The notes under the pieces were generated by a model, which saw only the letters and a program-made list of their open reading frames with translations, was not told the origin of the DNA and did no database searches. From a virus: a stretch of 25,771 bases of DNA. The stretch covers positions 1-25,771 of the IMG/VR virus record IMGVR_UViG_3300009136_000032; one strand, written 5' to 3'. How positions within the stretch are numbered: the stretch's first letter is position 1; each line of letters begins with the position of its first letter. The position numbers were made by a program, and so were the translations under genes. Shown here one piece after another: positions 1,428 through 24,061 of the stretch.

Positions 1428-1634
1428 ATGAGGTTCGTTAAGTTTTTACTTGTATGGATTAGTCAAAACCTTGCTATTCCTTTTTGGGTAGTGGGACATA
1501 TACACCTTTCTATTCATACACTTCACAGCTTACTTGAATTAACAAGCTCCATTGCCATGAACATAATAGTGGCAGTAGGATTTTTTATAGACTACAACAA
1601 TGACAGAACAAAAGATTCAGAAAAAAAGAATTAA
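1428..1634 (+). CDS. Small two-helix membrane protein, unknown function
   Basis: A 68-aa protein with two hydrophobic stretches (about residues 4-25 and 35-56) and a short charged C-terminus (DRTKDSEKKN). This predicts a two-span inner-membrane peptide. Size and topology are compatible with a class II holin-like protein, but the gene sits between a helicase and a nuclease rather than in a lysis cassette, so that reading is only a possibility. It could equally anchor replication proteins to the membrane. The start ATG lies 1 nt after the helicase stop, and the 3' end overlaps the VRR-NUC gene by 35 nt. No Shine-Dalgarno sequence is present. That the gene is real is likely; its function is unknown. 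Confidence 0.7.
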   Translation: MRFVKFLLVWISQNLAIPFWVVGHIHLSIHTLHSLLELTSSIAMNIIVAVGFFIDYNNDRTKDSEKKN

Positions 1635-1839
1635 ACAATTAGAGGATGAAGGGTACTACGTTATCAAGCTTACTGTTACCAACAAGAATGGGATACCGGA
1701 CTTGATAGCTATACCAAAAGATTCAAACGTTTTGTTTGTTGAATGTAAAACCAAGGAAGGTAAAGTATCAGAGTTACAAAAATATAGACACAAAGAATTA
1801 AAAGATTATGCTGAGACAGAAATATATAGGGGAGACTAA
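1600..1839 (+). CDS. VRR-NUC domain nuclease
   Basis: A 79-aa protein consisting of a minimal VRR-NUC domain, a PD-(D/E)XK-superfamily nuclease found alone in many phages and fused in FAN1-type enzymes. The motif GIPD (residues 31-34) is followed by ECK (48-50) and Q60, giving the expected D34, E48, K50 and Q60 active-site set. Stand-alone phage versions are associated with processing branched DNA, including Holliday-junction-like substrates, so a role with the nearby helicase in recombination or replication-fork processing is plausible. The length is normal for stand-alone phage members. The start ATG overlaps the upstream membrane-protein gene by 35 nt, and the 3' end overlaps the next gene by 32 nt, suggesting translational coupling without a Shine-Dalgarno sequence. 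Confidence 0.88.
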   Translation: MTEQKIQKKRIKQLEDEGYYVIKLTVTNKNGIPDLIAIPKDSNVLFVECKTKEGKVSELQKYRHKELKDYAETEIYRGD

Positions 1840-2185
1840 ACACTATGAAATAGATGAATTGTTTGTAGAAAAAATACGAGACATGCCTAGACCAATAGGT
1901 ATAGATATAGCATTTCAGGTAGATGAGGTGGCATCTGATTTACCTGTGTTAGAATTTTGGCAACAAGAAATTGGAGGAGTTTCACATATTAATACAGACC
2001 CATTCTTTTTTAGAGTAGAATACTTAAATCAAGAAGATGATACTCCAATATTTTTTGACATCTACGAGATAGACTCAGATGAATATTTAGATTTATACAA
2101 TAAAAATAAAATAATTAAATTAAATGATAACATCAACACAGATGAACTTCTTAGAGAAGGTAATAAACGCAGAGTTACAGCTTAA
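1808..2185 (+). CDS. Hypothetical protein in replication operon
   Basis: A 125-aa acidic soluble protein with mixed alpha/beta character; no family is recognised. The centre (residues 60-95) is rich in aromatic and acidic residues (PFFFRVEYL, FFDIYEIDSDEY). No membrane segment or metal-binding motif is visible. The start at 1808 overlaps VRR-NUC by 32 nt. A second in-frame ATG at 1883 would give a 100-aa protein without overlap, but the residues between the two ATGs look like ordinary protein, so the longer form is preferred. The 3' end overlaps the DnaA-like gene by 62 nt. It is probably co-expressed with the surrounding DNA-metabolism genes. Confidence 0.65.
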   Translation: MLRQKYIGETKHYEIDELFVEKIRDMPRPIGIDIAFQVDEVASDLPVLEFWQQEIGGVSHINTDPFFFRVEYLNQEDDTPIFFDIYEIDSDEYLDLYNKNKIIKLNDNINTDELLREGNKRRVTA

Positions 2186-2549
2186 TATTTTAGAAAAGAA
2201 CAGGTCAATACCATATGTAAATGGAAGACTAATATTCTCATACATACTACATAAGCGTGGAGTAACATACGATAGGATAGCAAACCATCTAGGGAAAAAT
2301 CATGCAACAATAATTCATGCTGTAAAAAATGGAGAGCACTACTTGAAACATGAGCCTGACTTGAATGGGATATATAATATATGTAAAACTATATTTGAAA
2401 ATGAACACAATCCTGTTCTAGAATATAGTCATGAAGAACTTCTCAAAGCCTACCTAGACTTGGAGCTACAGCTATATAGCGTTGAGTGTGAACTAAATGA
2501 GGCACAGGAGTATATAAAAAATATTAAAAAAACTTGCGTAGATAATTAA
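2124..2549 (+). CDS. DnaA domain IV-like DNA-binding protein
   Basis: A 141-aa protein whose residues 30-90 resemble the C-terminal double-strand DNA-binding domain (domain IV) of bacterial DnaA. After a helix with a TYDRIANHLG turn comes HLGKNHATIIHAVKN (55-69), which matches the pattern of the DnaA signature (G-[RK]-[DN]-H-[TA]-T-[VI]-x-H-A). No AAA+ ATPase domain or Walker motif is present. Residues about 100-135 form a predicted coiled coil rich in Leu and Glu. The protein may therefore bind DnaA-box-like sites in the phage or host chromosome and oligomerise, either to mark a phage origin or to compete with host DnaA; both are inferences. Start ATG 2124 overlaps the upstream gene by 62 nt; an alternative ATG at 2142 would shorten the overlap to 44 nt. 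Confidence 0.82.
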   Translation: MITSTQMNFLEKVINAELQLNILEKNRSIPYVNGRLIFSYILHKRGVTYDRIANHLGKNHATIIHAVKNGEHYLKHEPDLNGIYNICKTIFENEHNPVLEYSHEELLKAYLDLELQLYSVECELNEAQEYIKNIKKTCVDN

Positions 2550-2573
2550 ATTTATATTAAATTTAACACTTAT

Positions 2574-2804
2574 ATGGGATATACATTAAATGATATCGAC
2601 AAAATTATAGAGTTTAAAAGTTGGAGTGACAAGAAAAAGATAGATGAACTATTACGATTGGACTGCTCTCAATACACTAACCTTGGATTGGAATCCTCTA
2701 AGTCACAAAGAGAGGAAGTAAAGAAGAACTCTAGAAAAATATACAAACTAATAAAGAAGGTAGATAAGGAGCTTGGAGATAAGTTTCTTAGAGTTATGGA
2801 TTAA
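2574..2804 (+). CDS. Small hypothetical protein
   Basis: A 76-aa basic, Lys-rich, mostly helical protein with no recognised family. The N-terminus (residues 1-28) contains an IDKIIEFKSW...KKKIDELL pattern that could be a short helical hairpin, and the C-terminal half is charged (KKNSRKIYKLIKKVDKELGDK). It lies 24 nt after the DnaA-like gene, with an A/T-only leader and no Shine-Dalgarno sequence, and 5 nt before the next small gene. Codon use resembles its neighbours. It is probably a genuine early phage gene of unknown function. Confidence 0.6.
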   Translation: MGYTLNDIDKIIEFKSWSDKKKIDELLRLDCSQYTNLGLESSKSQREEVKKNSRKIYKLIKKVDKELGDKFLRVMD

Positions 2805-2809
2805 ATAAT

Positions 2810-2995
2810 ATGGCGACAGCACTTGAGTACGAAAGGATTAATTACATCAATGATTTGATGCATAACCTTAACTCAATTAATTCAGACATCTACGAGTCGC
2901 TATGTGATAGAGAATATCAAGACACAAAGAAAGCTATTAACGATATGCAAATTCAGCTTAAGGAATTAAGCGACTCACTTAATGAAGACTTCTAA
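2810..2995 (+). CDS. Small coiled-coil hypothetical protein
   Basis: A 61-aa protein that is almost entirely predicted helix, with heptad-like Leu/Ile/Met spacing (INYINDLMHNLNSI, MQIQLKELSDSL), suggesting a small dimeric coiled coil. No catalytic motif is visible and no family is recognised. The ATG lies 5 nt after the previous stop, preceded by an A/T-rich leader (GATTAAATAAT). Its 3' end overlaps the HNH endonuclease gene by 14 nt. A role as an adaptor or inhibitor is possible but unsupported. Confidence 0.6.
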   Translation: MATALEYERINYINDLMHNLNSINSDIYESLCDREYQDTKKAINDMQIQLKELSDSLNEDF

Positions 2996-3389
2996 AACAT
3001 GTAGAGAATGTAAGGAAGTTAAAAGTGAGTCTGAGTTTTATAGCTCCGGACACAAAACCCTTTCGGGTAAAATAATAATAGGCACCTTGTGTAAGCCATG
3101 CACAAAAATCTATAAGAAAAAAAGAAACACAAGCATAAGAAAATGGCTACACAACTATAAGAAAAAAGCTCAATGTGAAAAGTGTGGTTACTCAAACAAA
3201 ACTCATGCAAGTTTCAAGACTTCTGCTATAGAGTTTCATCACGCACAAGGTAATAAAGATTTTGCTATTGCAAATTCTATAAGGAAGGGTGTGTCTATAG
3301 AAAGAATAAAAGAAGAGATAGGAAAATGTGTAGTATTATGTTCAAGATGCCACGCAGAAATTCATTCAAATGAACGACATAATTTATGA
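2982..3389 (+). CDS. HNH endonuclease with N-terminal zinc-finger
   Basis: A 135-aa HNH nuclease. The C-terminal part has the zinc-supported HNH layout: CEKCGY (Cys65, Cys68), the catalytic EFHH box (His86-His87) followed by GNKDF, then LCSRCHAEIH (Cys120, Cys123, His124, His128). The N-terminus carries another pair of cysteine knuckles, CREC (7-10) and CKPC (37-40), which probably bind a second zinc ion. This architecture is frequent in free-standing phage HNH enzymes that act as homing-type nickases or in DNA processing. The gene overlaps the preceding one by 14 nt and the following one by 4 nt (ATGA), so it is embedded in the operon rather than inserted in an intergenic gap. No intron or split gene is seen nearby. 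Confidence 0.9.
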   Translation: MKTSKTCRECKEVKSESEFYSSGHKTLSGKIIIGTLCKPCTKIYKKKRNTSIRKWLHNYKKKAQCEKCGYSNKTHASFKTSAIEFHHAQGNKDFAIANSIRKGVSIERIKEEIGKCVVLCSRCHAEIHSNERHNL

Positions 3390-3805
3390 GCACAAGGTTT
3401 GAGACTAACAAAGATTTAAGCAGAGAGAGAAAAGCTATAGAATATTTTGTAAAAAAGTTTAATGGCACTTTTAAAAAGCTAGACCCAAACGATATTGATT
3501 ACAAAGTTTTTGATAAAGAAGGAAAGCTTATTGCTTATGCTGAAATCAAAGGAAGATATAAGACCATTGCAAATTCCTATCCGTTGCCTGTTGCTTGTAG
3601 AAAAATAGTAAAGCTTTGTGACAAAAGATTAAACCCTGTTATTATATGGGCATGTGATGATGGTATAGTTTATGGACAGCCATCACAGATAGAAGGTAAC
3701 ATAAGGTGGGGTGGTCGCAAACCAAGGGAAGGTGCTGTCAATGACCAAGAGCTTATGATTTATTATCCTAAACAAAAAACACTAAGGTACCATACGTACC
3801 ACTAA
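3386..3805 (+). CDS. PD-(D/E)XK-like nuclease family protein
   Basis: A 139-aa protein with a putative restriction-endonuclease-fold core. Acidic residues at 36-38 (DID) precede a beta hairpin ending in AEIKGR, giving an ExK pair at Glu53-Lys55, the usual D...ExK arrangement. Strands with PVIIWACDDGIVYG follow at about residues 84-98. The size is typical of small phage PD-(D/E)XK proteins. Function is inferred from the motif only; it could act in DNA repair, host DNA degradation or recombination. It is coupled to the HNH gene by a 4-nt ATGA overlap and is followed 11 nt later by the next gene. The nuclease assignment is moderately supported; the specific substrate is unknown. Confidence 0.68.
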   Translation: MSTRFETNKDLSRERKAIEYFVKKFNGTFKKLDPNDIDYKVFDKEGKLIAYAEIKGRYKTIANSYPLPVACRKIVKLCDKRLNPVIIWACDDGIVYGQPSQIEGNIRWGGRKPREGAVNDQELMIYYPKQKTLRYHTYH

Positions 3806-3816
3806 ACTATAGTTAT

Positions 3817-4062
3817 ATGATTGATTCTATAATAAAACACCACAACGAAGAAGAGTTTTTAAAAGCTGATGGCTTTGATGATGCAATCATTGGAGTTGAT
3901 GAAAAAGAAATGAGACTAATATACTCTGTTTCTAAGTGTCTTAGAATATTAGAGAAGGATATGAGTCCACTAGATTCGTTTGAGTACTTTACATACAACG
4001 TAAGTGGTGCACACATGGGAGATAAGACACCTATATGGTGTTGGGATTTATATATCTCTTAG
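3817..4062 (+). CDS. Small conserved phage hypothetical protein
   Basis: An 81-aa acidic protein. The pattern ADGFDDAIIG...LIYSVSKCLRIL followed by FEYFTYNVSGAHMGDKTPIW resembles, from memory, a small family found in many unrelated tailed phages that ends in a conserved fN-x-x-G-x-x-x-G-x-x-T-P-i segment. No biochemical role for that family is known to me. It is the last gene of the plus-strand block. Its final 32 nt (4031-4062) overlap, on the opposite strand, the end of the 55-aa gene that closes the minus-strand operon. The start is the first ATG after the previous stop, with a short A/T-rich leader. Confidence 0.78.
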   Translation: MIDSIIKHHNEEEFLKADGFDDAIIGVDEKEMRLIYSVSKCLRILEKDMSPLDSFEYFTYNVSGAHMGDKTPIWCWDLYIS

Positions 4063-4198
4063 CCGGTCTTAATCCTGCAGGTTTCTTTATGTCTTTAGTA
4101 AAACCATCCGTTGCGTAGTAGAGTTTTACTTGTTTATCAGTAAAGACCCTACCACTTGGACTAACGTTTCTATTCTTTCCTACTTTTTTGAATGGCAT
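4031..4198 (-). CDS. 55-aa conserved-looking small phage protein downstream of the giant gene
   Basis: A short reading frame translated from ATG (4198-4196) to TAG (4033-4031). It starts MPFKKVGKNRNVSPSGRVF, continues with TDKQVKLYYATDGFTK and is strongly basic. The start lies only 2 nt after the stop codon of the 3110-aa gene, so it is probably translated by coupling from the same mRNA. The central SPSG-x-x-[FY]T-x-x-QVxLYYAT-x-GFTK pattern resembles, from memory, small proteins in other marine phages; this needs a search to confirm. The last 32 nt overlap the convergent plus-strand gene ending at 4062. No catalytic motif is visible. It may be a minor virion component or a late accessory factor, but its function is unknown. 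Confidence 0.8.
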   Translation of the reverse strand: MPFKKVGKNRNVSPSGRVFTDKQVKLYYATDGFTKDIKKPAGLRPAKRYINPNTI

Positions 4199-4200
4199 AT

Positions 4201-7200
4201 CTAGTTGGTTCTTCTTCGTCTAGTAGGTCTTGTTCTCCTGTTGGATGCAGGTCTTCTTCTACGAGACAATGTTTCAGCTTGTTTCTTTTTTCTTTCTTGC
4301 TCTTTATAATACTGAGCATTCATCTCTTGTACACTAGGACCTGAAGAAGAACTCTTCTTATTCTTTGGACCTGATATTACATAGTCAGAAAAGTTAAGCA
4401 GTCTAAGTAAATCTTTACCTACATCATTTCCTTTTCCAAGGTTGTCAATGTTCTTTATAAACCTGTGAATCTGAATAGCAGGAAGACCGGGAGTAGCAGC
4501 TAATTCTACATATAGCTTTTCTAAAGCATCCTTCTTTTTCTTTGCGTCTTTAGTATCCATAGCTCTCTTAGCTAGCTTAGTCAATCTTTGTAGCTGCATC
4601 AAGGGAGCAAGGCTTCTAACAGATTCACCTGCATATGGTTTACCTTGTACTAAATCAGCTGTTCCACTTATGACTTCACCAACTATAAACAAAGCATTTA
4701 AGTTTCCAATAAGCATAGCTCTTAACATATCCTCATCATCGTCATCTCTTTTTCCCCTGAGTAGTCCGGGTAATCCCAAGGCTACATACTGAAACAAAGC
4801 AGGGGCAACGAAGTGATAAGTAATAAAAGTTCTAAGGTTTTGTCCTAGCGTTCCTTTACCTGCGTTTCTGTCCCAAGCTTTTAGTTTACGATACAGGTTA
4901 CGAGTTGATTGTATTTCCTTACGTAAGTATTGCTTAGGTGTGGTTAAGAACATATTCAATCCTCTTTGTATTGCACCTGATGTTTGATAGAAATCTTTAT
5001 CCTGCAAGTCCATAGACTGCTGAGTTCTCTTAGTATCTTTCTCAAACTTTATAATAGCTTCTTGTTGAGCCTGCTCTTCTGTAAGACCACGTTTCTTTGC
5101 TTGAGCTTTGTAATATAAATAGTTGGGTGCACCTCCTAAATATATTGCAGCCTTATCACCAAACTTTGTGGTGTACATAATAAAGTTTACATAGTTATCC
5201 CAATACTGATTAGGTACCATCTCTACCATACCTTCTTTAGAATATGATTCTATTACTCTAGTAATGGATTGATTGTTTCTGTCCTGCATATACACAGAAT
5301 TCTTAGACATCTCCTTGAATACACTTTTCATTTGAGGAATAGTCTTCAACGAATACTTCAACCAATTTCTTACACCAATATCATTAGCGTAAGTTATCAT
5401 AGAAGTTAACTGCTTAATCATTACCGTTGGGTTTAAACCAATGCGAGAAAATATAAAAGCATTCTGCATTTTATTTATAAACCTATCTGCAGGATTGTTT
5501 CTTACTCCGTTGTTGGCAATCTTACCAATCATATTGTTAATCAATCTGTTTACATACTCTCCATGCACAGCTTCTATTGCAGTACGTACATTTTTATTGT
5601 TAAACATTTTGTGAATGTCACGAATTGTTTCTCCATACGCAGCAAAGTATTCCATGTCACGCAAGTATGTTGACATAACATTCATAGAATTCATCTTCCT
5701 AATTGGTAAGTTGTTTTGAACCCTAGCTTTAGTTGATGCTGTACCAACTGAAGTATTCATTATACTTTTTTGAGAAAGTAAATCCAAAGGCTCCTGCTCA
5801 ACAGGATTACCTTGAGTGTCGTTTCTATATATCATACCTGAATAGTATCTATTCCATGGCATGTTAGTTCTATACAGAGCTTTGTATGTTTCGTTGTAAT
5901 GAGAATACAATGAAGGATAAAACTCATTGACTTGCCAATCACCAAACTCTTTAAGGCTGTCGTCTATCTTTGATTCTATCTCTTCCATTATACGAGCATA
6001 GTCCTTGCCAAACGTAGCCTCAAACGAGCCTCTGTTTGCAGGGTCTTTGTATAAGTTATAGTAGTAAAGCATCTCGTTCTGAGACATTTTAGTTTCGTTC
6101 TTCAACAATACTTCTTTTAGATTCAGTTTGTTCTTTAAGCTTGGGTCATTATTAAAAGCTTCTTCTGCTTGACTTACCTCATTAGGGTCAAGAACATATG
6201 CAACCTCTTGCTTGTTGAATGCTCTTACTTTATTCCTCCATTTTTTACCAAACAGTTCTTCAAATTTCTTAGCAACAATCTCTTCTTGTTGCATCATTCT
6301 TTGCTTGTACATTCTTGATGATGAATCTACTCGACCTGTTACCATTGTCTGTAATCTACCACCAAACATTTCACCGGGTAGCTTAGATACTAAATCCATT
6401 AAACCATCTAGTGCTTCAGTCTCATTAAAAAACTTTGTAACATTAGTTGAAAGTGTATTTAGAAACTTTTTAATTACAGATTTTGTTTTGTTTCTTTTCT
6501 CGTTAAGTAACTTTTTATTAGATAAATCTATACCTTCCTGCTCACTCTTATCATTTAAGTCTACCTTCTGTCCTGTTACTTCTTCATAAGCCACCGATGC
6601 ATCATCGTTATATTTTTTGTGTGCATCTTCAAGCTGTTGTTTAAGTTCTGACCTACCTTCAGATACCATCTCTTCTAAGATAGTAGCAGCCACATCTAAA
6701 GAACCTGTCTTATTGACATCATTGTTCTCCATTAACAATGAGTTGTTAAGGTTTATCAGAACCTGAATGTCTACAGCTCTACTATAATCTCCTTCAGTTA
6801 AATTCTTTTTGCCATCAATAGCATTGAACTCTTCTGTAAGTCTTTGATTCTCAGCCTCTACTTCTTCTGCTGTAGCTGTTGGAGCTAGTCTATCTTTAGC
6901 AATACGTTCTATACGTTCCTTCACCTCAAGACTTATCTTAGAACCTTTCTTTCGTCCTGCAACTGTAGTCTCGTACTTTCCGTTTAGTATATCTTTGATT
7001 TTCTTTTCTAGTCTTGTATTGTTTTTTACGTTAACAAACTCTAAGACCTCATCAAATATATTTTCGATGTTAGCTTCTGTTGCGTTGGTTACTTTTCTAA
7101 CCAAGCTCATTACCTCACTACGAGTGTAGATGTCTGAAGGTAAAGACTTTCTAATAAAGTTTCGCACAGCAGCCTTAGCTTTTTGCAAACTCTTAGCACC

Positions 7201-10200
7201 ACGTTTTCTTTCCTGTACCTGCTTACGAGCTTCAGTAAGTTTCTCCTGTACACTTTCACTTGTTCGTGTACCAACACTTCTTTGGAACTCCACCTGAAGC
7301 ATAGCTTGTTTAGTGGTTAGATAGTTTCCGTCACCTTCTTTTAAATACTCAGGTTGTTTCTTTAAGAACTCTATAGTTTGGTCAGCTATCTGTTGCTCTG
7401 TTAGCTTAACCTTTTTTCTTTTGTTAGACTTGATTAACTTTTGCTCGAAAGCTTTTGTTCTTTTGTATAGTCTTAATCCTGATTTGAATCCACCTGTTAG
7501 ACTACCAAAAGTTTTTGGAAGAGTCTTGAATAAATCTACATCCACCTCCATCATTCTGTTAACTAACTTGGCAGGATACTTTTTTATTCTTACTAAGAAA
7601 TCTTTAGTAACCTCATCTCTAAAGTTGTCTTCTCTTGCAGCTGTAACATAGTCAAATATCTCTTGCTCTTGCTGCTCTCTACCTCTACTAGGTTTAGCAG
7701 ATTCCTGTAAAGCTTTGGCATCATCCCATTCAGTAACATATGGTGCTTTTTCTAGCTTGGGTTTAACACTTTCAAACGTACCTACTCGTTCAGTTATAGT
7801 TTGTCTGTTACCACCATCATAAACCATGGCAACAACATCAGGCTCTCCATTATTAAAAGCCTTGAATGTTTCTTTACTCCATCCATCAGGTGCAAACTCA
7901 TTGTTCCACTTAACTTTAGCAGCAGGAACAAAACCAAAATCAGCATAATACTTTGTGAGAACTGTATCGTAATGGTCTAAAGAAGTAGCTCCTTCTTTTA
8001 TTGCTGTAACTATTAACTGAGGAACTCTACCTTTTCCTTTTCCACTAGAGAACACAGAAATTATATCGCCATCTGCTGTAATAGCAAGACCTGCTTTTCC
8101 ATCTGCTGTTAAAAATAATCTTGAGTTTTCGTATTCAGATACAGGGTAAACAAATACACTTGCTGCGTATTTATTATTCTTTGTAGAGTCAGTAATTGAT
8201 TTGTGAAATAATTCAGCGTCATTAGTTTCATAAAACTCTGTGTCCAACACAGCTTTATCGCCTAATCTTTTTTCTAAATCCTGAGCTTCCTTTTGACTAA
8301 GAGATATAGTTTGTACTACGGTATCATCTCTAACAACTCTGTCGCTTCTTCCAACGTCATATCGGGATTTTCCTTTAATGTCGATTGAGCTACCCTTTCG
8401 TGTACGGTCAGCTTCGTTCTCGGAACGGATAACAGTTCTTCTCTTGTCTTGTATTTCATCCTGCAAATTTAGTTTATTATTTTTAGTTTCTCTACCTCTT
8501 GGCTTAATATTTATTTCTTCTGTCACAGTTTCAAATAAGGGCGGCTTAGATTGTGCAACTAAACTCCCTGCATTGGCTTTGCCTAATACTAATATATCCT
8601 CATTGATTGGATTCTCTTTGAACTTAGTTTTGTTTGTAACAGTTAAATGTGTATATGTTCTATCCTTTAACTCTAGGTCTCTAAATTCTTTTTGATAAGA
8701 CCTATCCTCAGAAAATTGTTCTCGAACTCTTTGGTCTCGTTCTTCGGTTTTTGTTTTATCAACCATTAACGTATCCGGCATATACTGTTGTAGCGTAGTG
8801 TTGATATCATATAGTCCATCTAATATCACAGCTGTGTTAGGTTCAGCAGGAACTTTACCCACAAAAAATGGGTGAGTAAAACCTTTGTCTTGAATACTTT
8901 CTACTAGTTTTTTAGTATTTTTTGGTACGACATATGTAAATCCTCCAACAAGAAAACCTCCCTTGTTTTCTTTTAAAAATTTCTTTCCTAATAAAGCTTG
9001 GTCTCCATACCTTAAAGTAAACTCTTGTGTATTAATATTTATATTGCTGAAGGCTTTTTTCCAAGGGGCGTTTTTATCCATTCTCATACCATTTCTAGCA
9101 GGTATAACTCCTGTTATAAAGAATCTCCTTTTGTCAAAGCTTTCCTTCTTCATTAACTCTACAAATTCTTTTTGATTTACAGAGCTAGGGTCAATGATAG
9201 CATCTCTTGTTTCTTTCTTTAACTTACCTTTCATCTTCTTAACAACATATTCAGAAAGATTTTTAGAATACTCCGCATAATCTTGTGGATTCTTTTTTTG
9301 CATCTCAGTTATGGCATCAAAGAAATATTCACTACCATACATATTACCATACATAGCGTCAGGTGTTTGTATCATTATAAGTACACCCACTCTGTCTCCT
9401 GTCTTGTAAGCCTTCTTAAGCTTGTTCATGTTTTTAGTAGCAGCAGTTTCGTCTAATGAAGCAAATCCAACTCCATTCTGCATGTTTTCTGATAGTAACG
9501 AATAACCAAACCCACCATCTAATACTTGTCCTGTTTCCTTAACTTTTCCTAGCTTACTAGCATCTGATGTAATTGCATAAACGTTACCATCGTGAAGATT
9601 TACAAAATCATTGAGTGTCATTTCATTGTAATTACCAACCCTGTCTTCTGTATATACCCTTGTCTCCCTACCTCTTGGTTTAATAGGCTGAGCATCAGGG
9701 TTTATGGCAACAGGTACACCTGTCTCACTATATGGTGAAGATTTCTTTAGAATCTTTAAGTCATTGGTAAATATCTCTTGACCTGTGGCTACCTTATCTG
9801 CTAGGGTGTTTAATAGTTCTACAACTTGCGTGTCGTCTTCGGTTACTATTTTTCCTATGTCAATAAACTTGTCTAGTCCTAGCTTTTTAGCTGTAGTTTT
9901 TAGGAAAGTTATAATTGCATTTTGTTCCGGTGCATTTAAAGTCTCATATCTACTTGCCATTAAGCCAAATAGCTCTGCCAATCTCTCCTCATTTTGTACG
10001 GTAGCACCTTGTTCTGCATATTGTTTAGCAAACGCATTGGCTCTTCTAAAAAGCATAGAGTTTTTAGGTGAAGCTTTCATGATAGCACTAGTCATTGTCT
10101 GAACAGCATCAGCAACATTTTTTTCTCCTAGCTTTTGAAATAGCACAGCGTGAAATGCCTCGTGAGCTACGGTGATTTCATTAGCCTTATTCATGTCAAG

Positions 10201-17009: not shown

Positions 17010-17864
17010 TTAAGGAAAGCTTTTCATTGCTTCTGATTCAACTGCAAATAATTCTGAAGCTTCTGTGGTGTTAAGAGTTAACTCAAATACACAGTAGTGT
17101 CCTAAAACACCATGTGATTCTGCTGTTGGATTTTTAATAAAGAACCAATAGCCATCTACAGCAGGAATAAAAGTAGGTTGTGGTGCTCCTGCAAACCCAC
17201 CTTGTGCTGCTGCTGTAGTGTTAATTGTAATATCATTATCACCTATAGGAAGGTCAACAAAAGTTTGGGTCAACACTCCTACAAATTGAGGTGTATCATA
17301 ATTAGGTCCTGCAGCATAATACATGTAGTCTCCTGCAGTAATTATACTTCCTATAGATACATTAGTAGGAAAGCTTACAATTACATTTACAGGGTCAAAC
17401 GATTGAATCAAGCTACTTACGCCTAAACCATTTACACTTCTTAATTCCCATTGTGTATCATTAGTATCAGGTCCTGTTGGTCCATCGCTTCTAACAAACC
17501 CAAACCATGCCCCTTCTTTTTTCACAAAATAATTTACACTTATCTCTCCATCAAGTTGTATATCTGTAAATAACTTAGCTCCCCATGGGTCATCACTTTC
17601 TAAATTTAATGTTTTAAAAATTTTGTTTTGCAATGGCTCTTGATTAAAAACACTTGTTATACTAGATGGATAATTAACACCATAGTAATTATTTCTTAAT
17701 TCATTTGTGTTATGCCTCCATAGATTACCTCCACTAAAACTATACAGGAATTGATTCATTCCTTTAAGGAACTCAGCACGATATGAATAGAATGATGGAA
17801 ACCCTTTTGAGTCTTCACTATAAGTTATTGTTGCTTTATTTGTTTGTATGGCTTCTAAGGACAT
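17010..17864 (-). CDS. Probable tail/adhesion structural protein, 284 aa
   Basis: A 284-aa protein rich in Asn, Thr, Tyr, Phe and Gly, predicted mostly beta. Notable stretches are SKGFPSFYSYRAEFLKGMNQ (near 19-38), GGNLWRHNTNELRNNYYGV (near 45-63) and a central GAWFGFVRSDG...QWELRSVNGLG. From memory, similar sequences are common next to tail genes in uncultured marine and Bacteroidota phages, but no function is established. It has no signal peptide or membrane segment. The start overlaps the upstream Cys-rich gene by 10 nt, indicating coupled translation, and the cupin-like gene follows after 19 nt. A tail or head-to-tail structural role is inferred. Confidence 0.68.
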   Translation of the reverse strand: MSLEAIQTNKATITYSEDSKGFPSFYSYRAEFLKGMNQFLYSFSGGNLWRHNTNELRNNYYGVNYPSSITSVFNQEPLQNKIFKTLNLESDDPWGAKLFTDIQLDGEISVNYFVKKEGAWFGFVRSDGPTGPDTNDTQWELRSVNGLGVSSLIQSFDPVNVIVSFPTNVSIGSIITAGDYMYYAAGPNYDTPQFVGVLTQTFVDLPIGDNDITINTTAAAQGGFAGAPQPTFIPAVDGYWFFIKNPTAESHGVLGHYCVFELTLNTTEASELFAVESEAMKSFP

Positions 17865-18787
17865 GCTGTTATATTTGTTATTATTCCGTTAACATCTATT
17901 GTTACTAATTTTTTCCCTGATGGTGGATTCATCACATATGTACCTGCATCTGACTGTGATAGACCACTAGAGTCTTTAAAAGCAAATTCATTAACAGAGG
18001 GTTCTCCTGCTGTGTTACCACGATTTGGTGCTACATAAAAAAATGTAGGAAAAGAAGTGGTAGTACAATTATCTGAGTCAAGATTAATAGGGATTGATGG
18101 TAGTGCCGCAGGACAATTTACATCTAAGTCCCAAGCTGTACCACAATAACCTACAACTTCTACCTCACAAGAATCGCTATTGTTGTTTACCCTAGGAACA
18201 ACTAAGGTGTAAAATCCGGGAGCACTAGAACTCAAAAATACATCTGCAGAGGTTCCTGTCGCAGTACCACTACTTCCAACAAGGTCAAACGAAGATGATG
18301 TTGGATTGTATGTAAACTCATCTAATCCTGAATATCCTCCTCCATCTAATGTGCTTCCTACAGATGGAGAACAATCAGAAGAAGTATTACCAACAACGGT
18401 AGAGTTTCCTGCCGCTGCTTGAGCAAAACCAAATAAATCACATGTTAGTTTATTGTAAACAACTCCATCAAACGTAGCTCTTATACTGTCAGGTACAGAT
18501 TGAGGACTAAAGTATATTATTATAGCACCAAAATCTCCTCCTGTATTAAACGTTAACTTATAAACTCCTGTACCACCTCCTGCGTTAATAGTAGAATCAC
18601 AAGGTGCAAAGCAAGATGGACATGGAGTTGCGATAGAAAGTACGCATGAAACCTGTTGTCTACATACGGTACCATCAGAATAAAATCCATCCGATGCACA
18701 TATCGTTAAATCCACATCCTCATATACTGCTGACGCAGTTGATAAGGTTGGTCCGTCTATATAATAATTTCCTAAGCTTGCTGCCAT
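17855..18787 (-). CDS. Cys-rich beta-structured tail protein, possible receptor-binding component
   Basis: A 310-aa protein, low in charge and rich in Ser, Thr, Gly and Cys, with about 13 cysteines including a CPSC-FAP-C cluster near residues 55-63. The opening YYIDGPTLSTASAVYEDVDL, then ICASDGFYSDG, resembles, from memory, beta-sandwich repeat units in adhesins and tail proteins of Bacteroidota phages. The Ser/Gly-rich centre (GTATGTSADVFLSSSAPGFY) fits a fibre-like protein. It lies 9 nt after the muzzle-like gene, whose C-terminus is also Cys-rich, and overlaps the next gene by 10 nt. A role in host attachment is inferred. The start ATG is preceded by an uninterrupted A-rich leader and no Shine-Dalgarno. 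Confidence 0.66.
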   Translation of the reverse strand: MAASLGNYYIDGPTLSTASAVYEDVDLTICASDGFYSDGTVCRQQVSCVLSIATPCPSCFAPCDSTINAGGGTGVYKLTFNTGGDFGAIIIYFSPQSVPDSIRATFDGVVYNKLTCDLFGFAQAAAGNSTVVGNTSSDCSPSVGSTLDGGGYSGLDEFTYNPTSSSFDLVGSSGTATGTSADVFLSSSAPGFYTLVVPRVNNNSDSCEVEVVGYCGTAWDLDVNCPAALPSIPINLDSDNCTTTSFPTFFYVAPNRGNTAGEPSVNEFAFKDSSGLSQSDAGTYVMNPPSGKKLVTIDVNGIITNITACP

Positions 18788-18796
18788 ATCTTTTTT

Positions 18797-21700
18797 TTAT
18801 ATTGGTGTACAATCACACGTTTGAAAGGTTACATCAAAAAATGTTTGTGGCTGAGTAAAAGAACGCATACACACTATCTGTACCCCTGTTGTTAATATAG
18901 TTATATTTTGAGCTATACCAAAGCAGTCTGTATAGAAAAATGTTTTAGTGCTTGGGGTAATGTTTTCTACAAAATAAGCATTGCAGCAAACTGATGTTTC
19001 ATTTCCAAGTTTTGTTGCAGTAACAGGGTCGCTAGTTATTGCTTTAACTTCAAACTTACATCCTGTAAAACCTGTTAAACTAATATAATCTCCGACTGAT
19101 TCTCCACCGTAAGCTATAACTTCTTCTTGAACAACACCTGTGTTAGGTTCTTGACATCTTCCAACCAAAACATTTAACCCACAGCCACAAGTATGTGCTG
19201 CTATTGTGTCAGTTAATGTGTTTATTGTTCTTGCACAGATTGTTGTTGAGGTACCTACATTTAGATTAACGTTTTGAATTGTTCCTCCACAATCTGTAAA
19301 ATTAACACTACCATTTACAAGACCATTTGCTGTTATTAAATACTCATCACATATTAAGTTACAATCTGTTTCAGTTGAGATACCATCTAAAGTATCTGAT
19401 GTAGTTTCAGTTGTTGTTGATACAACCACATACGTACAAGAAGGATTAGAAGATAAGTTAACAAACGAACCAATACTAACACCTGATGATGGAGCTATAA
19501 CTGCACTTGGTGCACTTGTTGTTGTAGCTAAAGGTGAGAAACATAATTCTACCTTTAAGTTATCTGTCGGGTCATCTCCACATTCACAACAAGCCTCTGC
19601 ACATGATACAGTTGAATAACATAACTCTATTGGAGTTGGTTTTCTATAGTCCCAAATTAAATATAAATACTCATCGTTAGTATTAGGCATAGGAAATGAA
19701 GCGTCAAATGTTGGAGCACCTCCTGTAATAGGTGTTGCTTGAGTTGAAACATTTAATAAAGTCTGAATGTCTGCAGGTAAACTACTATAAAGAGTAGCAC
19801 TTCTGTGGTATCTAAACTGATTAACCGATGCATCAAATATAAAATCATCCCCTAGTGCAGGTATCTGATTACTAATTATGTTTACATCTGCTCCATTAGC
19901 AGGAACTAAATTCCCTCCTTGAGGTGCGACAGTAGAGGTGTACTGAGACACAACTAAACCTGCTCCACTTTGAAATTCTATCTGCTCAGATTGCAAAGAG
20001 CTAGTAAAAGTACCATCATTCCAACGATACTCATCATGAATAAACTGACCTGATTCATTGTTAGATGTTATTGCTACTTGAATAATAGTTATTAATGGAG
20101 CATCAGGACACGTTACAGTAAGCTCTATTAGAGTTCCATCTTCCGTTGTAGCGTAAGGACCAATAATAACAGTTAGCTCTTCAGCATTAACTACATCTTT
20201 GTCAAACGTATCAGAAACCAATCCGTTAGATGATATGATGCCATTAAAAACTGAAACTCCATTATATATTCCTACATAAGGTATAGCCACACCTTGATAG
20301 TCTGATACTAAAAACGTTACGTTAACAGGACCAACTAAATCACCAAGCTGATATATAAATTCTTTTTCATCACCTCTTGATGTTATAGTTTTTGTTACAC
20401 CACAAGCTATATCTATTGGCTGCTGAGGTATCTCTAAGTCAGAGTTTGTTAATACATACTCATTCATGTATGGGTCATACCCTCCTAGCTTAAAAGTATT
20501 AAAGTCATTAATAAAGTAGTCCCTAAAGAAAGACCTCATCCCAAATTCAGACACAACTTGAAGTTGTTCTGATTGAGCTGAGGTTCCTTTTAATTGAAGG
20601 ACTGCTCCACGTTTTGCATCAGTAAAAAATTTATCTGCTCCCCAAACAGCATAACTCTCGGGGTTATTACTGTTTCCGTAATCTTCTATTCTAGCAATCT
20701 GTGTTCCTAAAACTTCAGGAACAGAAGTAACTGCACCACCACCGGTAGAATCCGATAGTAAGTTTTTTCCTTGTAATACATAAGAAATTTTATCTTCCTG
20801 TAAAACTAATATATCAGTCTCTCTTCCATCTAATACAGTAATTGGACCGTATGAATCTTCTAAAGGTTTAAAGTTTAATAACCCTAGGTTAAACTCATTT
20901 AGTTTATTTAAGTTTGTCTCGTCATTAATAACACCGCTATAGGTTATATCTGCAAACCTATGTGCCTGCTTATAATCTTGAGCTGAAGTACTTGTTACCC
21001 TGTTTCCTAGAGCTAAAGGCTTACCTACTATTGAGTCTTCTATCTTATAGCTCTCAACACCATTTCCAAAAGTATAACAATTAAAAAACCCTGTGTCTAC
21101 AATGGCAGGAAGTAAATCAGTTTGAGTTTGCACATTCCCTTCATGATACTTATCATTTAAAATCTGAAAAGTTGTAGGGGATTCATACCATAAATCAGGT
21201 AGTGCGTCTTGAGGCTCAGATTCAAAAACAATTAAAGTATCCGACCTCACTATAGTTATATCCACAGATAAATTAGACCTTCTGTTTCTGTTACTACCAC
21301 ATCCTTTTGTACCTGTCCATCCTAACAATTGTTTACCCGATAACTCTTGTTCGGTTCCATTGTAATCTAAAAACTGAACATAGTTTGTACCTAACTCACA
21401 AGGAAGATTAGTTTGTATTGCTTCAATTCCAAAGGCACTAAATGTAAAAAAGGTACCGCCTGTAGGTAGATATTCAAACTCTGATGGTTGGTCATTTGTA
21501 TCTGTTCTGCACTCTGCTTGGCTAGTTAATCCTCCTAAATTATCTCCATCCCACCAAGCTTTTAAGCTAGGATAGTCTTGTGATGCTGTGGCTTCAAACT
21601 CTAATATACACTCTCTTAACTCACACTTGTTTCCTGCACCACCATTTCTTTTATTATCATAAGATACATTAATAGTAGAACCTTCGGGAATTGTGTAAGG

Positions 21701-24061
21701 TAGATAGGCAAAAGTTGAAGGGTCAAGTGGGTCGTATGTAGACGCATCATAATCAGGGTTCTCAAAACTACATACATCTAACGCAACTTTTGGACATGAA
21801 CCATCGTTACCTCTCCCTGAACCCTCATCTTCAACAACAGGATTCTCTCCCAAGGTAGTTGCAATCTGATTAGTTGCAATTCTCATATAAGTTCCTGACG
21901 GAACTGTAGCCTCATTACCTGCAATATCAGCAGGAGGAGGATTAATAAAGTCTCCTTCTTTTGCGTCTTTATCTAGAACCGTTACTGTGGTACATCTATT
22001 CTTTGGACCATTGGTATCGGCTTTAACTATAAGCTTGTCTCCTACTTCAATCTTTTGAGAGTTTTCTCCATTAAGCAAAAACCATGTTGAACCAATTGAT
22101 GCGTCTCTAAAAAATAAATTAGAATAAATAGTATCGTAGTTTTCTTTATCTGCTTTTATACAAAACTTATAATACTTCGCCCAATCAGGAGGAAGCTGTG
22201 TTGAAGGTATTGTTACTTGTATAGTGTTCTTATCTGTTAAATTTCCACAAGGTACATACTGTGTATTGTTCTCACTTACCAACGCAGTTGTAGCTCTTGA
22301 GTATTCATCCATATAAATAATACCAACCTCATATCCCCTATTACTATGTAGGCTTGTTGCGTTTGCAATCTTTGTGTACTCAGCCTCAGCTAAGCTTATA
22401 GTTAAATACTCGTAAGCGATATTTAAAGGGTCAGTTTGGTCTACGTATTTTAATGCATTTATCTGTATTCCTAAAACATTTGGATTTAGAGGGTCTACAA
22501 TAATATCAAAAGGCTGCCCTATTCCTGATATACCACTTGAAGTTTTTTGATAATTAAGGTCAAGGTTAAGTTCTGCTGCACAATTAAGCTCATCTGATAA
22601 TGATGCTCCATCACATGCGTCTAAAAACACAGGCTCTAATAATTGTATAGCATCAATAAAATCTTGGTCTTGAGCTAAATCAAATACATTATCGTAGTCT
22701 TGTCTTAGGGTATATTGAAAATTTAATTCAATGTTACCATTGGTTTCTGTTAGTTGGTCATACGCTGCATCCCAAGAGTCATGAAGTAAATCAAGCTCAA
22801 TAGATATACCTGCACCTGCCACTAATTCTGCATCATTCAAATCAATTTCTACAATTGTTTGTACAATGTTTCTAGTGACTCCTGATATATTATATGTTCC
22901 TGCAGTTGTTACGTGTGGTAGAACTCTAAAATCAATAGGTTCGCTGAGTAATTCTGTAGTATATTCTAATTTTAAAGCAACACCTGTATAGTCAATTAAG
23001 TCACGTCCTTCTATGTAGTTACCATACATTAAACGGTTTCCCATTAATGTTTGTGCTTTGGCTTTTAAAGGAACGTTATCAAATAATCTTAAAACTTCTG
23101 TATCAGCTAGTACAGTAAATATTTTACTATTACTAAAGGTGTACAAAGTATCTGTGTTGTCAGGTATACCAAGGTCAGACTTATCAAGCTTCTCAATAAC
23201 CTTAATAATATTTGTGCTTATGTCCTTAAATAATAAATCAACTCCTACAACAAGCTCACCTCCACTATTATATGTTATTTCACAAATGTTGGTAGTATTT
23301 AACATCCCTTGATTATTAGCGTCACTTGAGCTATATTTAAAAGGACCCGGAATAAATGAGGGTGAACTAAATGGAGAGGTGGCAGAGTATTCATTGTCTG
23401 CATACCTATACCTATACCCAAAACATACAAATCTGTTTTCTAAATAATTATTTTGTCCTGCTCCTTTCTTGGGTACAATCAATGGAGATGTGTATGGAGG
23501 TCTTTTAATTACAAGTATAGACTCTGCTGAAAATTGGTCAATAAATGTAGCGGTAGGATTTTCATAATTTCTTTTTGTATTAATAAATCTAGGTGGATTA
23601 TAATTGTCTGTAAAAAACAACAAGTCATCCACAAAATCTACACCTAACATCAACTCATCTTTCTCAAAATTCAGGGTAGTGTTAACACCATCTCCATCAT
23701 CTAAGCTAACTATGTGATACGTTAAAGTTTCAGACTGAGTGTTAAATGATACTATCATGTCACATTTGCCTGTAGCTCCCAATCCAAAAGCAGGGTCATG
23801 TACAAACCAAAACATTGTTTCTTGCTCACCTAAGGCATAGGCACCAATGCACCTTGCTTGTGCTGAAAGAGTTTCTCCATTATATTTTAAAGTTGTTAAT
23901 GAATCGTTTCCTTTGGAGTTTTCCACAGCACCAATCTCAGATGCTTCAGTTGAACCTAAACGAACATTTACAGCATCAATGTACTGACCATTAGGCAAGA
24001 GTCTCTCATCAAGACTCTTATTCATTTTACCTGCTACAAAATTTCTTTGTACGTTTGCCAT
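18797..24061 (-). CDS. Large tail-stabilisation / muzzle-like protein with Cys-rich C-terminal duplication
   Basis: A 1754-aa protein. The N-terminus NFVAGKMNKSLDERLLPNGQ, continuing to VRLGSTEASEIGAVENSKGN (residues 7-51), and the following propeller-like beta repeats (YALGEQETMFWFV, LMLGVDFVDDLLFFTDNYNP) match what is known of phage stabilisation proteins (P22 gp10-like) and the crAss-like 'muzzle' at the tip of the short tail. It is much longer than P22 gp10 (about 470 aa), with many inserted beta domains. A short cysteine cluster, CAEACCECG, near residues 1486-1494 precedes two tandem eight-cysteine domains (1503-1630 and 1631-1754). It starts 1 nt after the stop of the ring/connector-like gene, as expected for interacting tail proteins. 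Family assignment is probable; the C-terminal extension is a likely receptor-contact region by inference. Confidence 0.82.
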   Translation of the reverse strand: MANVQRNFVAGKMNKSLDERLLPNGQYIDAVNVRLGSTEASEIGAVENSKGNDSLTTLKYNGETLSAQARCIGAYALGEQETMFWFVHDPAFGLGATGKCDMIVSFNTQSETLTYHIVSLDDGDGVNTTLNFEKDELMLGVDFVDDLLFFTDNYNPPRFINTKRNYENPTATFIDQFSAESILVIKRPPYTSPLIVPKKGAGQNNYLENRFVCFGYRYRYADNEYSATSPFSSPSFIPGPFKYSSSDANNQGMLNTTNICEITYNSGGELVVGVDLLFKDISTNIIKVIEKLDKSDLGIPDNTDTLYTFSNSKIFTVLADTEVLRLFDNVPLKAKAQTLMGNRLMYGNYIEGRDLIDYTGVALKLEYTTELLSEPIDFRVLPHVTTAGTYNISGVTRNIVQTIVEIDLNDAELVAGAGISIELDLLHDSWDAAYDQLTETNGNIELNFQYTLRQDYDNVFDLAQDQDFIDAIQLLEPVFLDACDGASLSDELNCAAELNLDLNYQKTSSGISGIGQPFDIIVDPLNPNVLGIQINALKYVDQTDPLNIAYEYLTISLAEAEYTKIANATSLHSNRGYEVGIIYMDEYSRATTALVSENNTQYVPCGNLTDKNTIQVTIPSTQLPPDWAKYYKFCIKADKENYDTIYSNLFFRDASIGSTWFLLNGENSQKIEVGDKLIVKADTNGPKNRCTTVTVLDKDAKEGDFINPPPADIAGNEATVPSGTYMRIATNQIATTLGENPVVEDEGSGRGNDGSCPKVALDVCSFENPDYDASTYDPLDPSTFAYLPYTIPEGSTINVSYDNKRNGGAGNKCELRECILEFEATASQDYPSLKAWWDGDNLGGLTSQAECRTDTNDQPSEFEYLPTGGTFFTFSAFGIEAIQTNLPCELGTNYVQFLDYNGTEQELSGKQLLGWTGTKGCGSNRNRRSNLSVDITIVRSDTLIVFESEPQDALPDLWYESPTTFQILNDKYHEGNVQTQTDLLPAIVDTGFFNCYTFGNGVESYKIEDSIVGKPLALGNRVTSTSAQDYKQAHRFADITYSGVINDETNLNKLNEFNLGLLNFKPLEDSYGPITVLDGRETDILVLQEDKISYVLQGKNLLSDSTGGGAVTSVPEVLGTQIARIEDYGNSNNPESYAVWGADKFFTDAKRGAVLQLKGTSAQSEQLQVVSEFGMRSFFRDYFINDFNTFKLGGYDPYMNEYVLTNSDLEIPQQPIDIACGVTKTITSRGDEKEFIYQLGDLVGPVNVTFLVSDYQGVAIPYVGIYNGVSVFNGIISSNGLVSDTFDKDVVNAEELTVIIGPYATTEDGTLIELTVTCPDAPLITIIQVAITSNNESGQFIHDEYRWNDGTFTSSLQSEQIEFQSGAGLVVSQYTSTVAPQGGNLVPANGADVNIISNQIPALGDDFIFDASVNQFRYHRSATLYSSLPADIQTLLNVSTQATPITGGAPTFDASFPMPNTNDEYLYLIWDYRKPTPIELCYSTVSCAEACCECGDDPTDNLKVELCFSPLATTTSAPSAVIAPSSGVSIGSFVNLSSNPSCTYVVVSTTTETTSDTLDGISTETDCNLICDEYLITANGLVNGSVNFTDCGGTIQNVNLNVGTSTTICARTINTLTDTIAAHTCGCGLNVLVGRCQEPNTGVVQEEVIAYGGESVGDYISLTGFTGCKFEVKAITSDPVTATKLGNETSVCCNAYFVENITPSTKTFFYTDCFGIAQNITILTTGVQIVCMRSFTQPQTFFDVTFQTCDCTPI
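18800..19171 (-). repeat. Eight-cysteine domain B of the muzzle-like protein
   Basis: Residues 1631-1754, the extreme C-terminus. The cysteines are at 1636, 1668, 1692, 1693, 1713, 1731, 1749 and 1751, ending in CDC. The segment TDCFGIAQNI aligns without gaps to TDCGGTIQNV of domain A, and the next Cys follows 18 residues after the TDC cysteine in both. Confidence 0.8.
19172..19555 (-). repeat. Eight-cysteine domain A of the muzzle-like protein
   Basis: Residues 1503-1630. The cysteines are at 1507, 1542, 1567, 1571, 1591, 1609, 1625 and 1627, ending in CGC. It contains the TDCGGTIQNV strand-turn segment that aligns without gaps to domain B. Confidence 0.8.

Follow-up and report, generated by a model that had tools for sequence, protein, structure and literature searches.

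In work on crAss-like phages, the tail fibres have been given most of the role in host recognition, and the muzzle has been described as a conserved gate. The muzzle is located at the tail end, where it presumably makes contact with the cell (PMC10172136). In phi-crAss001 the distal tip is formed by the crass domain and disulphides stabilise other parts of the tail, and in the crAss muzzle family the length varies by insertions (PMC10172136). The muzzle analysed here belongs to an uncultured virus with a record of 25.8 kb, and the whole stretch of 25,771 nucleotides is called the window. Its muzzle is encoded by two genes, and the first polypeptide closes with two cysteine-rich repeats in a C-terminal region that we call the slot. 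A search of the literature found nothing on this tail region or on a split muzzle. The features discussed below are the following.

18797..24061, minus strand: muzzle, first polypeptide, 1754 aa, with matches to Pfam PF25731 and phrog_14478
20450..24061, minus strand: conserved muzzle core, aa 1-1204, matching the single-chain muzzles of phi38:1, phi40:1 and the elemo phages to aa 1204-1205
19643..20449, minus strand: region X, aa 1205-1473, beyond the phi38:1 and elemo alignments, present in split-muzzle relatives and phi13:2
19562..19642, minus strand: cysteine hook LCYS..EACCEC, aa 1474-1500, from the tail alignment of 70 muzzles
19364..19552, minus strand: module A, copy 1 (C1, C2), aa 1504-1566, HMM of A with E 1e-21 and AlphaFold strands
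19178..19363, minus strand: module B, copy 1 (C3-C8, FTDCGG motif), aa 1567-1628, HMM of B with E 1e-13
18989..19165, minus strand: module A, copy 2, aa 1633-1691, HMM of A with E 5e-20
18806..18988, minus strand: module B, copy 2 (YTDCFG motif), aa 1692-1752, HMM of B with E 1e-18
17855..18787, minus strand: cysteine-rich 310-aa gene between the muzzle parts, in an order kept in about 50 relatives
17010..17864, minus strand: MUZ_C part of the muzzle as a gene of its own, 284 aa, Pfam PF25729 with 65.7 bits (cut-off 27)

The muzzle and its closest relatives

On the strength of its sequence matches, the ORF at 18797..24061 is a crAss-type muzzle. The Pfam family PF25731 (crAss_MUZ) matches aa 5-171 with 33.7 bits (cut-off 27), and phrog_14478, a virion structural protein, spans aa 5-1474 with an E-value of 8e-219. 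By the PF25731 and PF25729 matches it belongs to the same muzzle family as gp44 of phi-crAss001, but the window muzzle consists of two genes, and the modules, which close the first polypeptide, lie outside the crass and IG2 domains and have no counterpart in the published list of gp44 domains. The closest named records are MW202828, a spring-water phage from Manatee Spring with 43% identity, followed by Cellulophaga and Flavobacterium phages. The muzzle of MW202828 is also split and has the same slot, with one B module and no A-B unit. Cellulophaga phage phi13:2 (Pachyviridae) likewise has a split muzzle and the same slot, filled by a Big_9/cadherin-like domain and not by an A-B unit, and unlike the window it has no 310-like gene between the muzzle parts. 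Near aa 970 of the window muzzle (about position 21150) most of the close relatives hold about 75 residues more, 1830 as compared to 1754 aa.

Both muzzle parts are found on a single polypeptide in phages of the phi38:1 and elemo type, whereas the window has them on two. The phi38:1 muzzle is a single ORF, where the match to the window core ends at residue 1077 and the match to the MUZ_C protein resumes at 1083. The gap between the two matches in elemoF is about 20 residues by profile and 15 by BLAST, and in single-chain relatives MUZ_C begins 5-15 residues past the equivalent of window residue 1204; region X would in these relatives fall between the two muzzle parts. In the window and about 50 relatives, on the other hand, the core runs on into region X, the hook and whatever modules are present, and a stop codon and the 310-like gene follow, which puts the slot at the free end of a chain that is split. 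The junction of the two parts, 17864-20450, with the split at residue 1204, is kept in the split-muzzle relatives. As judged from these matches, the two-gene muzzle is a split variant that is still homologous to the single-chain crAss muzzles.

The phi-crAss001 chain gave no sequence alignment that places the split, and we infer that it falls within the propeller part of the muzzle. The slot attaches close to the part of the chain that forms the beta-propeller, and in phi-crAss001 another domain makes up the distal tip, so exposure of the units at the tip is no more than a possibility. The preliminary description had placed the modules at the tip of a muzzle-like protein. The protein is a muzzle and the modules do form the C-terminal end of the polypeptide, but this end arises from a split gene.

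The repeats and their cysteines

Counted along the 1754-aa ORF, the cysteines of copy 1 are at aa 1507, 1542, 1567, 1571, 1591, 1609, 1625 and 1627, and those of copy 2 at aa 1636, 1668, 1692, 1693, 1713, 1731, 1749 and 1751. These recounted positions of 16 cysteines give exactly the spacings described earlier, 35-25-4-20-18-16-2 and 32-24-1-20-18-18-2, and the exact bounds of the repeats, 18806-19165 and 19178-19552, are a small correction to 18800-19555. Several relatives have CxxxC, as in copy 1, also at the place of the '1' spacing in copy 2, which makes this spacing a local shortening.

The homology of the two successive repeats, proposed in the preliminary description, is confirmed by both local alignment and profile comparison. 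The Smith-Waterman score between the copies is 97; full shuffles score 35 ± 6, and none of 1000 shuffles that left the cysteines in place exceeded 69. With profiles built from ten relatives, A1 against A2 gives P 1.5e-11 and B1 against B2 gives P 1.6e-7. We also compared 35 distinct A-B units, taken from muzzles and from one neighbouring gene family, and all eight cysteine columns were invariant in every unit at a mean column identity of 35%, which bears out the idea of an architecture held by cysteines.

Iterated profile searches divide the repeat into a module A of about 60 aa, with C1 and C2, followed by a module B of about 62 aa, with C3-C8 and the motif Y-T-D-C-x-G. Module B is found without A, in a single copy, in many muzzles (for instance in L046, L052 and L024; relatives are given L numbers here), and as three lone copies in L072 and L080. 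The repeat is therefore not one domain with eight cysteines, and the earlier description of two domains stands as far as there are two repeats, but not for each repeat as one domain, since each is a composite of A and B. An unrelated structural-type protein of L101 has six B modules; it is the first of two adjacent structural-type genes (1522-7809) of an unrelated virus and has TPTPT linkers, and the second bears one B. In another lineage (L107-L118) a virion protein of about 2200 aa ends, behind a Thr/Ser linker, in a minimal B whose four cysteines are C4, C5, C6 and C8.

Weak B-like matches were observed directly past the split point in several relatives, at muzzle aa about 1188-1246 (E 7e-6 in L033, for instance); these are possibly a degenerate B module or the result of profile drift and were not counted as modules. 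For module A, homology to the L067-type domains is weakly suggested (hhalign P 0.0035), and homology to the N-terminal half of the L023-type tails is unsupported (hhalign P 0.045).

C3 and C7 are jointly missing in ten B modules, as would be expected of a disulphide pair. We infer that the bonds C1-C2 and C3-C7, plus two bonds among C4, C5, C6 and C8, would fit, and a C1-C2 disulphide in module A is probable. It is very unlikely, in our opinion, that the cysteines hold zinc and do not form disulphides, a reading which would be compatible with any proposed function. Pairs of the CxC and CxxxC type do exist, but the four cysteines of the minimal B lie far apart without knuckle pairs, and the joint loss of C3 and C7 is how disulphide partners would behave. 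The modules are probably braced by disulphides.

Predicted fold and searches for known relatives

The AlphaFold model of a single A-B unit is all-beta, with a pLDDT of 94.7 and a pTM of 0.82, and the whole tail is predicted with a mean pLDDT of 86.8. The strand order is alike in copies 1 and 2, and the difference in predicted structure that would have counted against the preliminary description was not seen. Among solved structures none was convincing; the best Foldseek match to the PDB had an E-value of 0.12, and the best VIA-align scores, Z 3.7-3.9, were tied by unrelated proteins. Neither search gave a match to a known ligand-binding fold. The Bacillus endospore appendage protein Ena1C, with Z 3.9 over 55 residues at 2.6 Å, was level with unrelated proteins. 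Sequence searches of the PDB gave no convincing relative of the modules. A Pfam scan of the 35 A-B units reached at best E 0.008, to one unrelated family, and fn3, Big, cadherin and BACON were absent among the Pfam families listed, though the unit may be related to such domains at the level of the fold; the PHROG scan reached E 0.003 in one of the 35 units, with no convincing family. When known phages were searched directly with the tail by BLAST, there was no match, and in cellular genome contigs no relative of the modules was confirmed.

Among predicted viral structures, a few matches to uncharacterised phage proteins were obtained in BFVD. Foldseek gave a probability of 1.00 for A0A6J7WZY8 and A0A6J5NSF4 and a match over 61 residues at 2.0 Å for A0A8S5LX81, at weak single-unit E-values (0.005 or higher), which suggests that the module fold may be spread among tailed phages. 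The A-B unit appears as a phage protein family that neither Pfam nor PHROGs contain; its fold is predicted with confidence, and no solved structure is convincingly related to it.

Variation of the slot

The hook is the final part common to the split-muzzle relatives in the tail alignment of 70 muzzles, and the tails past the conserved core are from 22 to 412 aa long. A module is lacking in 20 of the 78 muzzles used for the tree, which stop at or just past the hook, so the module is dispensable. Other tails have one, two or three lone B modules; L096 and L097 have one A-B unit, the window and 12 relatives have two, and in L099 two units are followed by fn3 and pectate lyase. The largest array was found in L098, where a muzzle of 3256 aa has eight A and twelve B modules, with at least eight A-B units. 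The long array is supported by L120, which is 93% identical to L098 over 2386 aa and shows at least six A-B units up to the contig end. Still other tails bear unrelated domains, among them the Big_9/cadherin-like domain of phi13:2. Three muzzles (L018, L038 and L061) have the hook, LCYS..DACCxC, repeated 2-3 times and no A or B modules.

On the tree of 78 cores the tail type changes at least 19 times. The two-copy muzzles form one clade, and the copy number is constant inside it. The variation in copy number that had been expected is therefore real between lineages, from none to at least eight units or other domains, but not within the clade of the window, where it is fixed at two. The proposal that a module has been added to the muzzle agrees with related cores that end in nothing, B, A-B, an enzyme or cadherin-like domains, and judged by these comparisons the region behaves as a fast-evolving exchange slot. 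In relatives this C-terminal slot is taken by fn3, Big_9/cadherin-like and pectate-lyase beta-helix domains, which presumably work like the A-B unit although by sequence the unit does not match any of these families.

Tempo, duplication and transfer

In most close pairs the rate of evolution in the tail is 2-3 times that in the core. Between the window and L081, dS is 0.85 in the core and 0.82 in the tail, and dN/dS is 0.158 and 0.445, respectively. The pair L081/L082 is an exception, with a tail that is no faster than the core in identity. The faster change predicted for this region is accordingly seen as a tail dN/dS above that of the core in most close pairs, and the tail dN/dS is below 1 throughout (0.13-0.87).

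The duplication is old, as had been proposed. In the tree of units the first and the second units of the window clade form separate clades, so the duplication is older than the window clade, and the identity between A-B units is 25% within one genome as compared to 47-49% across genomes. Diversification of the type caused by a diversity-generating retroelement seems less likely as judged from the window; no long DNA repeats were found within it, and an identity of 53% in DNA between the two units speaks against it.

The single unit of L096 and L097 shares 42-59% of its residues with unit 2 of the window clade, whereas the identity to this clade is only about 45% in the core and 20-27% in region X. 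Unit 2 of the window is 40-62% identical to that of other clade members, with cores that are 71-83% identical. The L096/L097 unit is consequently as close as the clade members' own, and the simplest reading is that it appears to have been transferred horizontally into the L096/L097 muzzle lineage; an AU test of its placement inside as compared to beside unit 2 gave p 0.32.

These observations also bear on the possibility that the units are passive stiffening or decoration, like Ig-like spacers, which have no specific ligand, are weakly constrained and diverge fast for that reason. We find this improbable. It agrees with the tail dN/dS under 1, with the B modules behind Thr/Ser linkers in the other lineage and with the relatives that have no module, but an enzyme and known adhesion-type domains also fill the slot, a unit has apparently been exchanged horizontally, and the cysteines are strictly kept amid fast surface change, suggesting a selected surface. 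Host binding would be the best reading of the slot units, and the strongest pointers to it are probably the pectate lyase and cadherin-like domains at the slot together with the apparent transfer of a unit.

The neighbouring 310-aa gene

The 310-aa protein opens with the motif YYIDGPxxxxAxxVY..DGFYSDG. In L007, L011, L043, L054 and L057 the 310-like gene encodes about 580 aa, to which the window protein aligns two times, and this implies an internal duplication. L024 and L035 have a 432-aa counterpart with one C-terminal A-B unit (E 1e-16 to 1e-18), and the muzzle itself has a lone B in these two. Modules may thus move between the muzzle and the 310-like gene. The muzzle tail of L060 (aa about 1469-1557) has a segment that resembles the N-terminus of the 310-aa protein, and this could be a further sign of such movement.

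The neighbour could also be a partner of the units. If these dock another virion protein, such as the 310-aa neighbour or the tail fibres, their variation would track that partner and no host binding would be involved. The 310-aa gene adjoins, between the muzzle parts, in nearly all relatives, and the 310-like protein has a variable C-terminus that can bear an A-B unit. However, muzzles without a unit (L007, L021 and others) retain the 310-like neighbour, so the unit is not required for the neighbour, and a pectate lyase at the slot fits contact with the host surface better. We therefore regard docking as unlikely and keep host binding as the reading for the units.

Proposed function and significance

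We consider it rather likely that the slot carries an exchangeable, disulphide-braced extension of beta modules on the split muzzle, displayed on the outside and serving as an adhesin for the host surface. The A-B units would be displayed on the outer face of a hexameric muzzle, which would give 12 A-B units per virion if the muzzle is a hexamer as in phi-crAss001. On a Bacteroidota host they would act as adhesins, with a surface glycan or a structure of the outer membrane as the variable target, and the binding would come before or during the docking and opening of the muzzle. The slot could take up further units, or domains of another kind that bind or depolymerise, with the muzzle core undisturbed.

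A more general interpretation is that in environmental crAss-related phages the split point is a plug-in site for disulphide-braced beta modules of an undescribed family. They would be stacked there in numbers that range from zero to at least eight A-B units, would be swapped across lineages and between adjacent genes, and could give way to a depolymerase or to cadherin-like domains. To us the case for this is evenly balanced. If it is true, the mouth of the tail would, beyond the tail fibres, be a rapidly changing host-recognition device. If the muzzle of this environmental group bears an exchangeable adhesin slot, it would also imply that the muzzle too joins the arms race, and the A-B copy number would be a measurable trait to relate to host range.
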